Source of the DNA: Sulfuricurvum sp. MLSB
GTDB lineage: Bacteria > Campylobacterota > Campylobacteria > Campylobacterales > Sulfurimonadaceae
Length of the DNA stretch: 62,619 nt
NCBI RefSeq assembly: GCF_000747095.1
Contig: NZ_JQGL01000041.1
Coordinates: forward strand, 1-62,619
Direction: 5' to 3'
Shown here: in pieces, positions 19,605 to 41,195 of the stretch
Numbering within the stretch: the first letter of the stretch is position 1
Layout of the letters: every line of letters starts with the position of its first letter
Made by a program: the position numbers and the translations under genes
Notes under the pieces: model-generated
The model's input: the letters and a program-made list of their open reading frames with translations, nothing else
What the model was told of the DNA's origin: nothing
Database searches by the model: none

Positions 19605-20027
19605 ATGTTAGATATAAGTCCGATGCTGCTTGGCAGCACACTGATTGTCTTCCTTGTCCTTATTGCCGTACTAAACAGTTTGCTTTACAATCCTCTTTTC
19701 AATTATATGGAAAAACGGGATGCGGATATTAAACACGATTTGGAGCAAGTTGGAAACAACGACTCTGAAATCGCCGCATTTCACGCCAAAGCCGAAAAGA
19801 TTATGAGTGATGCCAAACTGGAGGCCGCGGCTTTAAGAGAAAAAGTTATTGCTGAGGCCAAAGCGCTGGCAAATAGCAAAATCGAGGCAAAGCGTGCTGA
19901 ACTGGCACTTGAGTACACGAAGTTCGAAGAGGCACTCTCGGAAGAACGTGCACGATTGAAGGAAGCACTGATGAGTGATGTTCCTTCATTCCAATCTGCT
20001 GTATCAGCAAAACTAAATCAAATTTGA
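19605..20027 (+). CDS. atpF': F1Fo ATP synthase subunit b'
   Basis: One of two different peripheral-stalk subunits. It has 140 residues: an N-terminal transmembrane helix (about 9-27), a LYNPLFNYMEKRDADI junction and a long charged helix rich in Ala, Glu and Lys. Campylobacterota, like cyanobacteria, use a b/b' heterodimer rather than two identical b chains. A strong AGGAGG ribosome-binding site precedes the ATG. The disrupted b gene starts 10 bases later. Confidence 0.92.
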   Translation: MLDISPMLLGSTLIVFLVLIAVLNSLLYNPLFNYMEKRDADIKHDLEQVGNNDSEIAAFHAKAEKIMSDAKLEAAALREKVIAEAKALANSKIEAKRAELALEYTKFEEALSEERARLKEALMSDVPSFQSAVSAKLNQI

Positions 20028-20037
20028 GGGGGACGCC

Positions 20038-20367
20038 ATGAGTAAAATTATCGTAACGGTATTGATGCTGGGCGCCTATCTTTTTGGATCGGAAGCTGGA
20101 GCAGAGGGTTCGACGGATATCGTTCAAAGAACGGTCAACTTCCTTATTTTTGCCGGAATTCTTTATTACATTTTAGCGGAGCCGGTCAAAAATTATTTTA
20201 GCGGGCGAAGTGCGGAAATTGCCGATGAACTGGATAAAGTTCAAGAGCGTCTTCGTGAATCAAAACGTCTTAAAGAAGCGGCTGAGCATAAAGTAGAAGA
20301 AGCTGTACGTTTCGCAAATGAACTGAGCGAAATGGCTAAAAAAGAGAACAAAATTTTGAGAGCGTAA
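20038..20367 (+). CDS. atpF: F1Fo ATP synthase subunit b, N-terminal part of disrupted gene
   Basis: The reading frame encodes 109 residues: a leader-like hydrophobic N-terminus, the membrane segment TVNFLIFAGILYYILA (about 32-47), the FSGRSAEIADELDKVQERL stalk helix, then KKENKILRA and a TAA at 20365-20367. Related b subunits are, from memory, about 170 residues. The missing C-terminus is encoded immediately downstream in the +1 frame (20360-20476). The stalk as read here could not reach the top of F1, so this is either a real loss of function or an assembly or sequencing error. All other ATP synthase genes present are intact. Confidence 0.85.
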   Translation: MSKIIVTVLMLGAYLFGSEAGAEGSTDIVQRTVNFLIFAGILYYILAEPVKNYFSGRSAEIADELDKVQERLRESKRLKEAAEHKVEEAVRFANELSEMAKKENKILRA

Positions 20368-20476
20368 AATGGTTCGTGAAGTCGTTACAGAAGTGATGAA
20401 TGACGTCATGAACAGCAGCAGTGATGCTCTTGGCAAAGAGGCTATGACCGAAATCTTGAAAAAGAAGGTGGCCTAA
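20360..20476 (+). pseudogene. atpF: C-terminal fragment of atpF in the +1 frame
   Basis: Codons from 20360 read ERKMVREVVTEVM..., ending ILKKKVA at the TAA at 20474-20476, a typical C-terminal end of an epsilonproteobacterial b subunit. The frame is +1 relative to the upstream part, and the combined length (about 145 residues) is still roughly 25 residues short of the relatives I know. This points to an internal deletion whose length is not a multiple of three at the junction AATTTTGAGAGCG. atpH starts at the next base. Confidence 0.8.
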
Positions 20477-21013
20477 ATGCAGTATGAGCTAATTGCCAAA
20501 CGCTATGCCAAGCCGTTGATCGACATGTGCGATCAAAGCGCTTTGGAAAATCTTTCTGAGCTTTTGAACGGAGTTGCTGAATCATTCAAGAATGAAAAAT
20601 TGATTCGAATCATGAACAGCGGCGATGTCAAAAGCGAAGCAAAGACGCAATTGATCCTGGATATGGTTGCTCCGGCAAAAAGCCAGACCGTCAATAACCT
20701 GATCAAATTGCTGGCTGAAAACGGCCGCCTTCCACTTATTCCTGCTCTGGCAGCTGAATTGAAGCGGGAAATCGCACGTTCAAAACGGATGTACAAAGGA
20801 CGAATTTACAGCGACAGCGCAATCGATCAAGCATCGGTTGACGCCATCGCGCGTGATCTTGGAAACAAAGTCGGTGCAACCATCGCTTTGGAATACGTTC
20901 CTGCACAATACGACGGCATCCGTGTCGAAGTGGATGAGCTGAATGTTGAGATCAATTTTTCAAAAAGCCGCCTCAACGCTCAGTTGGTTGAGCACATTTT
21001 AAAAGCAATTTAA
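20477..21013 (+). CDS. atpH: F1Fo ATP synthase subunit delta
   Basis: Connects the peripheral stalk to the top of F1. It has 178 residues, with the family N-terminal helical domain (LIAKRYAKPLIDMC) and the C-terminal GIRVEVDELNVEINFSKSRL, corresponding to the usual GxxVKIGDxVIDGSVRxxL region. The ATG follows the atpF stop directly. Identity follows from both sequence and operon position between b and alpha. Confidence 0.93.
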   Translation: MQYELIAKRYAKPLIDMCDQSALENLSELLNGVAESFKNEKLIRIMNSGDVKSEAKTQLILDMVAPAKSQTVNNLIKLLAENGRLPLIPALAAELKREIARSKRMYKGRIYSDSAIDQASVDAIARDLGNKVGATIALEYVPAQYDGIRVEVDELNVEINFSKSRLNAQLVEHILKAI

Positions 21014-21034: not shown

Positions 21035-22552
21035 GTGGTAGCAAAAGTACAAGCAGATGAAATCAGTTCGATTATTAAAGAGCGGATTGAGAATTTCGAA
21101 CTTAACGTAGATATTAATGAAACCGGTAAAATCGTCTCATATGGAGACGGAATTGCTCAGGTATACGGCCTAAACGACGTTATGGCTGGTGAAATGGTAG
21201 AATTTGAAGACGGTACACGCGGTTTGGCAATGAACCTCGAAGAGAGCAGCGTAGGGATTGTTGTTCTTGGTAAAGGTAAAGAACTCCGTGAAGGAATGTC
21301 AGTCAAACGTCTTGGACGTTTGTTGCGTGTTCCTGTTGGCGATGCACTTCTTGGACGTGTAGTCAACGCCCTCGGTGAGCCTATCGACGGTAAAGGTCCT
21401 ATCGAAACAACGGAAGTTCGTTTCGTAGAAGAAAAAGCACCTGGTATTATGGCGCGTAAATCGGTTCATGAACCGATGGCAACCGGTATTAAAGCGATCG
21501 ACGCCCTTGTTCCGATCGGCCGTGGACAGCGTGAGCTTATCATCGGTGACCGCCAAACCGGTAAAACAACGGTAGCACTCGACACCATTATCAACCAAAA
21601 AGGTAACGGTGTTGTTTGTATCTACGTTGCAGTAGGTCAAAAAGAATCGACAGTGGCTCAGGTTATCCGCCGTCTTGAAGAGCATGGCGCCCTTGAGTAC
21701 ACGATCATTGTATCGGCTACTGCTTCTGAAGCGGCAGCACTTCAATTCCTTGCCCCGTATACCGGTGTAACGATGGGTGAATACTTCCGTGACAATGCTC
21801 GCCACGGTCTTATCATTTACGATGACCTCTCTAAACATGCGGTAGCATACCGTGAAATGTCATTGATCCTTCGCCGCCCTCCGGGCCGTGAAGCGTATCC
21901 GGGTGACGTTTTCTATCTACACTCTCGTTTGCTCGAGCGTGCAGCGAAACTCAATGATGAAATGGGTGCGGGTTCATTGACGGCTCTTCCAATCATTGAA
22001 ACACAAGCGGGTGACGTTGCGGCGTACATCCCAACCAACGTTATTTCGATCACAGACGGTCAGATTTTCTTGGAAACAGACCTGTTCAACTCAGGTATCC
22101 GCCCTGCGATCAACGTCGGTCTTTCAGTATCACGCGTCGGTGGTGCCGCTCAAATCAAAGCGACCAAGCAAGTTGCCGGAACACTCCGTCTTGACCTTGC
22201 ACAATACCGCGAACTTCAAGCATTTGCTCAGTTTGCTTCTGATTTGGACGAAGTAAGCCGCAAACAGCTTGAGCGTGGACAAAGAATGGTAGAAGTTCTC
22301 AAACAACCTCCATACTCTCCGCTCGGTGCTGAAAAACAAGCGTTGGTTATTTTTGCGGGTAACGAAGGGTATCTTGATGATATCTCTGCTTCTTCAGTTG
22401 TAAAATTTGAAGCAGATCTTTATCCGTTCGTAGAGGCGTCATATCCTCAAATTCTTGAAAATATCCGTAGCTCTTCTAAAATCGACGACGAGACTATGGC
22501 TCTGATGAAAAAAGCGCTCGAAGAGTTTAAATCTACTTTCGTTGCTGAATAA
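21035..22552 (+). CDS. atpA: F1Fo ATP synthase subunit alpha
   Basis: Non-catalytic nucleotide-binding subunit of F1, 505 residues. Walker [20 protein letters not shown] and the [21 protein letters not shown] segment are typical. The start is a GTG at 21035 with a GAAAGGAG ribosome-binding site, giving [12 protein letters not shown]. Codon choice (CGT, GGT, AAA, GTT) is more biased than in flanking genes, as expected for high expression. Confidence 0.97.
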
Positions 22553-40644: not shown

Positions 40645-40721
40645 TGGCGCAGCGGACGGGACTCGAACCCGCGACCTCCTGCGTGACAGGCAGGCATTCT
40701 AACCAACTGAACTACCGCTGC
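40645..40721 (-). tRNA. tRNA-Asp (GTC), copy 2 of the cluster
   Basis: On the minus strand the acceptor stem GCAGCGG/CCGCTGC, a T-arm GGTTCGAGTC loop and encoded CCA give a complete 77-base tRNA. The anticodon loop CTGTCAC has anticodon GTC. It is identical to the copy at 40841-40917. Confidence 0.97.
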
Positions 40722-40733
40722 AGCGCCAAATAA

Positions 40734-40809
40734 TGGTGGGAATTACAAGACTCGAACTTGTGACATCTACCTTGTAAGGGTAGCGCTCTACCAACTGAGC
40801 TAAACTCCC
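40734..40809 (-). tRNA. tRNA-Val (TAC), copy 2 of the cluster
   Basis: Acceptor stem GGGAGTT/AATTCCC, anticodon loop CTTACAA in a CTACC/GGTAG stem (anticodon TAC) and encoded CCA. It has 76 bases, identical to the copy at 40931-41006. Confidence 0.97.
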
Positions 40810-40840
40810 GAGAGTTTTTTAATAATAAATCGAAATAACA

Positions 40841-40917
40841 TGGCGCAGCGGACGGGACTCGAACCCGCGACCTCCTGCGTGACAGGCAGGCATTCTAACC
40901 AACTGAACTACCGCTGC
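40841..40917 (-). tRNA. tRNA-Asp (GTC), copy 1 of the cluster
   Basis: A complete 77-base tRNA with encoded CCA, identical to the copy at 40645-40721; anticodon GTC. Confidence 0.97.
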
Positions 40918-40930
40918 AGCGCCAAATATA

Positions 40931-41006
40931 TGGTGGGAATTACAAGACTCGAACTTGTGACATCTACCTTGTAAGGGTAGCGCTCTACCAACTGAGCTAA
41001 ACTCCC
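40931..41006 (-). tRNA. tRNA-Val (TAC), copy 1 of the cluster
   Basis: A complete 76-base tRNA with encoded CCA, identical to the copy at 40734-40809; anticodon TAC. Confidence 0.97.
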
Positions 41007-41030
41007 GAAAATCGAAATATCTCGAACAAG

Positions 41031-41106
41031 TGGCGACCCCTAAAGGATTTGAACCTCTGTTCCTACCATGAAGTGATAGTGTCCTTGGCCACTAGACGAA
41101 AGGGTC
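41031..41106 (-). tRNA. tRNA-Glu (TTC) with C at position 33
   Basis: Acceptor stem GACCCTT/AGGGGTC, discriminator G and encoded CCA, 76 bases. The anticodon arm is CTATC/GGTAG around loop ACTTCAT, so the anticodon is TTC and the base before it (position 33) is C, where nearly all tRNAs have U. Otherwise the cloverleaf is normal. Confidence 0.93.
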
Positions 41107-41119
41107 ACTGAACCAACCA

Positions 41120-41195
41120 TGGTGTCCCGTGATGGATTCGAACCATCGACCCCCTCATTAAAAGTGAGATGCTCTACCGGCTGAGCTAACGAGAC
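41120..41195 (-). tRNA. tRNA-Lys (TTT), first gene of the cluster
   Basis: Starts GTCTCGTTAGCTCAG, with anticodon loop CTTTTAA (anticodon TTT), a T-arm GGTTCGAATC loop and encoded CCA; 76 bases. It lies about 30 bases after the predicted start of the cluster transcript. Confidence 0.96.

Follow-up and report, generated by a model that had tools for sequence, protein, structure and literature searches.

A 77-bp loss in atpF of a Sulfuricurvum draft genome is very probably a scaffolding artifact

In relatives within Sulfuricurvum, AtpF (NCBIfam NF006292, PRK08475, F0F1 ATP synthase subunit B) lies at the same operon position as the atpF gene considered here, and a relative's AtpF scores above the NCBIfam cut-off (190 versus 166 bits). 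The b subunits that we extracted from relatives measure 163–175 aa, with 171 aa in the same-genus set. Bacterial b subunits form a coiled coil built on an 11-residue repeat (PMC6131620). Gap estimation during scaffolding has also been described. In Meraculous, paired-end gap estimates are corrected for the bias of spanning pairs, as these pairs must exceed the gap length, and the estimates can come out negative (PMC3158087). The stretch of DNA analyzed here, which we call the window, comprises 62,619 nt of the Sulfuricurvum sp. MLSB genome. Unlike the AtpF genes of relatives, its atpF is without 77 bp at a join, so that the full protein cannot be encoded in one frame as assembled. We put the probability that this apparent deletion is a scaffolding artifact of the draft assembly, and not biology, at roughly 95%.

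The 5′ part of atpF (20038..20367, forward strand) encodes the membrane helix and lower stalk of the b subunit in 109 codons, terminating with KKENKILRA and a spurious stop codon at 20365–20367. Its PF00430 match (47.3 bits) spans residues 30–105, and the N-terminal membrane helix and b/b′ domain are present. The C-terminus, ERKMVREVV…ILKKKVA, is encoded by the 3′ part (20360..20476, forward strand) in the +1 frame relative to the 5′ part and ends at a stop codon at 20474–20476; this 38-aa piece by itself has no Pfam match. One continuous frame of ~171 codons that includes the C-terminus (PF00430 / NF006292 subunit b) is absent from atpF as assembled, an absence that we attribute to the assembly. 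The preliminary description had placed the end of the frame at 20367 and the C-terminus in the +1 frame at 20360–20476, and ORF calling and translation bear out both statements. Its estimate that the joined protein is ~25 residues short agrees with our computed deficit of ~26 residues relative to 171, and the deletion of non-triplet length that it suspected at the junction proves to be a net loss of 77 bp, a number not divisible by three, relative to each of the two nearest relatives, G028 and G036.

At the nucleotide level, homology with these relatives reaches AACAAAATTTTGAG on the left (to 20360) and restarts at AGCGTAAAATGG on the right (20361–20363 onward), placing the break point between AAAATTTTGAG and AGCGTAAAATGG. 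The assembled junction, a putative scaffold join at 20360..20361, reads AATTTTGAGAGCGTAAAATGG, clean letters without Ns. A microhomology-mediated deletion was considered and rejected, as the alignment shows no clear common bases at the breakpoints. In relatives, a short direct repeat, ACAAAATTTTG, occurs twice, 21 bp apart, at the left edge of the segment lost from the window; it may have favored the end of a contig at this point, or played no part.

Both nearest relatives are 95% identical to the window's atpF over residues 1–107. Against the single gene of G028, the two halves are 95% (residues 1–107) and 89% (residues 134–171) identical, a correspondence far beyond chance. An atpF match was present in all 60 genomes searched, which comprised the window's own genome and relatives from Sulfuricurvum and related genomes, including other families of the order. 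At the match, the frame stays open for 173 codons or more in all same-genus genomes but the window's own, and long frames also occur in genomes from other families. In a survey of 399 genomes of the order, the atpF matches among those listed are long and their frames open; 11 genomes, mostly incomplete, have no match. A lineage-wide short b subunit is ruled out by these long open frames in the 60-genome set and among the survey matches listed. The alignment with relatives that the preliminary description had proposed as a check finds the lesion common to none of them. Both halves also look as though they are still under selection, with no sign of decay, because dN/dS relative to G028 is ~0.04 for the N part and ~0.07 for the C part.

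The lesion lies in an otherwise ordinary neighborhood. The gene order is parA-parB-atpF′-atpF-atpH-A-G-D-C, and the block is collinear with that of relatives. The genes for the b′ subunit (atpF′, 140 aa; 19605..20027), the delta subunit (atpH, named by operon position; 20477..21013) and the alpha subunit (atpA; 21035..22552) are all intact on the forward strand, and the remaining atp genes read open as well, as had been claimed. A second atpF, which had been suggested as something to look for, was sought in the genome and none was found; the missing atpF segment is not present elsewhere in the genome either. The genome contains a single F1Fo a-subunit (C144). Beyond the operon's alpha and beta subunits, PF00006 occurs in one protein of 436 aa and one of 446 aa, sizes that would fit FliI and Rho. 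Since the a-subunit is single and the alpha/beta operon has no second copy, a spare F-type enzyme is lacking, and we therefore reject the idea that a second F-type ATPase makes atpF dispensable. ATP synthase is normally essential for respiring bacteria. A search for phage records was empty.

The evidence that carries our interpretation comes from the assembly itself, a draft of 148 contigs with 1.54% contamination. We compared ~0.9 Mb of this genome with 1.24 Mb of G028 (~0.52 Mb of the former aligned to the latter), leaving contigs that are wholly N out of the gap comparison. Within contigs, the ~0.9 Mb contains 10 short N runs of 10–62 N, with odd lengths. At each run we measured the flank-to-flank distance against G028, and 8 of the 10 could be mapped. 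All eight are shorter than G028 by more than their Ns account for, with deficits of 71, 73, 73, 74, 75, 75, 76 and 78 bp; their true gaps are 88–122 bp and their N counts 10–47. Since masking would preserve length, these N runs are real scaffold gaps, and so their sizes came out too small by a near-constant ~75 bp at the scaffolding step. The window itself ends at such a gap: its last base (62619) precedes 40 Ns (C41:62620–62659) inside an ORF, where 75 bp are lost in frame relative to both G028 and G036, the same class of artifact.

Comparison of conserved ORFs in both directions between this genome and G028 uncovered N-free interruptions in other genes. Relative to G028, atpF is short by 77 bp, an uncharacterized 693-aa gene by 71 bp (C14:11905), an asparagine-synthase family gene by 50–53 bp depending on method (C17:38897) and fliH by 50 bp (C89:21904); the two joins of about 50 bp show only that unmarked joins exist and do not probe the 75-bp offset. 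Each of the eight other genus members tested has an intact fliH and an intact asparagine-synthase family gene, and the interruptions in these two genes and in the 693-aa gene are probably the same scaffolding artifact. True gaps of at least 88 bp (88–122 bp) carry Ns, whereas true gaps of 50–77 bp carry none, and 12 of 12 sites fit this division. A single rule explains all 12: the number of Ns equals the true gap minus ~75, with nothing inserted if the result is near or below zero. With its 77 bp, atpF sits at the boundary of this rule. Its predicted gap is about +2 and not negative, which requires that the scaffolder also discards positive estimates when they are very small; no N run in the stretches surveyed is shorter than 10.

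The reverse comparison found no conserved gene of G028 with a comparable frame-breaking loss, apart from the fliH break itself, seen from the other side. At the DNA level, G028 has one clean absence of 95 bp (C28:1522), and the window's own genome has a 56-bp absence between two genes (C142:52011), which we take as natural. Elsewhere in that genome (C13:28826–30203), the match to a 459-aa ORF of G028 is spread over two frames and contains stops in its first part; this site is outside the 75-bp class, and a small indel is one possible cause, a start region that has diverged or does not code for protein another. General indel noise was rejected as an explanation, as a window-wide comparison with G028 and G036 gave atpF as the only frameshifted conserved gene; the remaining hits were ORF-extension, antisense-ORF or tRNA effects. 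The window also contains a tRNA array on the reverse strand (40645–41195) with a tandem duplication, which in coordinate order reads Asp(gtc)-Val(tac)-Asp(gtc)-Val(tac)-Glu(ttc)-Lys(ttt).

These measurements bear directly on three other readings of the junction. The first is that the sequenced population really did lose the 77 bp, recently, and that atpF was thereby inactivated or impaired, leaving cells with a defective ATP synthase or a dying variant. A clean junction without Ns, a single-copy gene and the low divergence of both halves, which is consistent with a loss that happened only very recently, would all agree with it. However, the size of the loss matches the systematic shortfall of the assembly, three other conserved genes in the same assembly have unmarked losses, no relative has the lesion, and the enzyme concerned is without a backup. 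We consider this reading very unlikely. In the second, a real deletion would have split the gene without abolishing its function. Either the 109-aa N-terminal part would act with a C-terminal peptide of 35 aa made by re-initiation at an ATG at 20369, in principle a possible start within the 3′ part, or a +1 frameshift product would be made, in each case giving a b subunit ~26 stalk residues short beside an intact b′. Although the C-terminal piece is conserved and the stop at 20365–20367 is close enough to the ATG for re-initiation, this proposal meets the same objections concerning shortfall size, other unmarked losses and lack of a backup. Moreover, a loss of ~26 residues breaks the 11-residue register of the coiled coil, and the arrangement is found in no relative; we regard it as scarcely credible. 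Finally, the deletion allele of a minority strain might have been assembled instead of the majority allele. The fragmentation and contamination of the assembly are in keeping with mixed strains, but such a mixture explains neither the constant shortfall of 71–78 bp at the N gaps nor the division of true-gap sizes between joins with and without Ns, and we judge it exceedingly improbable.

A scaffolding artifact, in contrast, agrees with the atpF lesion, which lies where the rule predicts a join without Ns. Linking reads would have ordered two contigs whose ends lie near 20360 and 20361, the underestimate of ~75 bp would have brought a true gap of ~77 bp to an estimate of about zero, and the contigs would have been abutted without Ns, with loss of the intervening bases and a shift of the atpF frame. 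What we observe is that 77 bp are missing, that N gaps are systematically too short and that other conserved genes have unmarked losses; we infer that the same step produced the atpF junction. That the assembler, whichever program it was, abuts contigs at estimates of about zero or below is suggested by the pattern of the joins. The preliminary description had offered two options, an assembly error or a peripheral stalk that is short or impaired in an unusual way. The former is strongly supported by the systematic ~75-bp shortfall at scaffold joins. The latter finds no support, and the same holds for the description's headline of a broken gene. Most likely, neither the b subunit of the organism, at 171 aa, nor its F1Fo ATP synthase, with a b/b′ stalk, departs from the ordinary.

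The atpF lesion is thus of no biological significance, and its relevance lies in how this genome should be read. Unmarked losses of up to ~77 bp mimic frameshifted genes, and the portion surveyed contains at least three affected conserved genes besides atpF. Before a pseudogene, a split gene or a missing segment is reported from this genome, it should therefore be compared with the scaffold-join pattern. More broadly, at draft-genome joins with underestimated or “negative” gaps, true sequence between neighboring contigs is lost, as we infer for atpF. Compared with known gap artifacts, this assembly is distinguished by a near-constant offset of 71–78 bp and by joins at estimates of about zero or below that carry no N and resemble real deletions.
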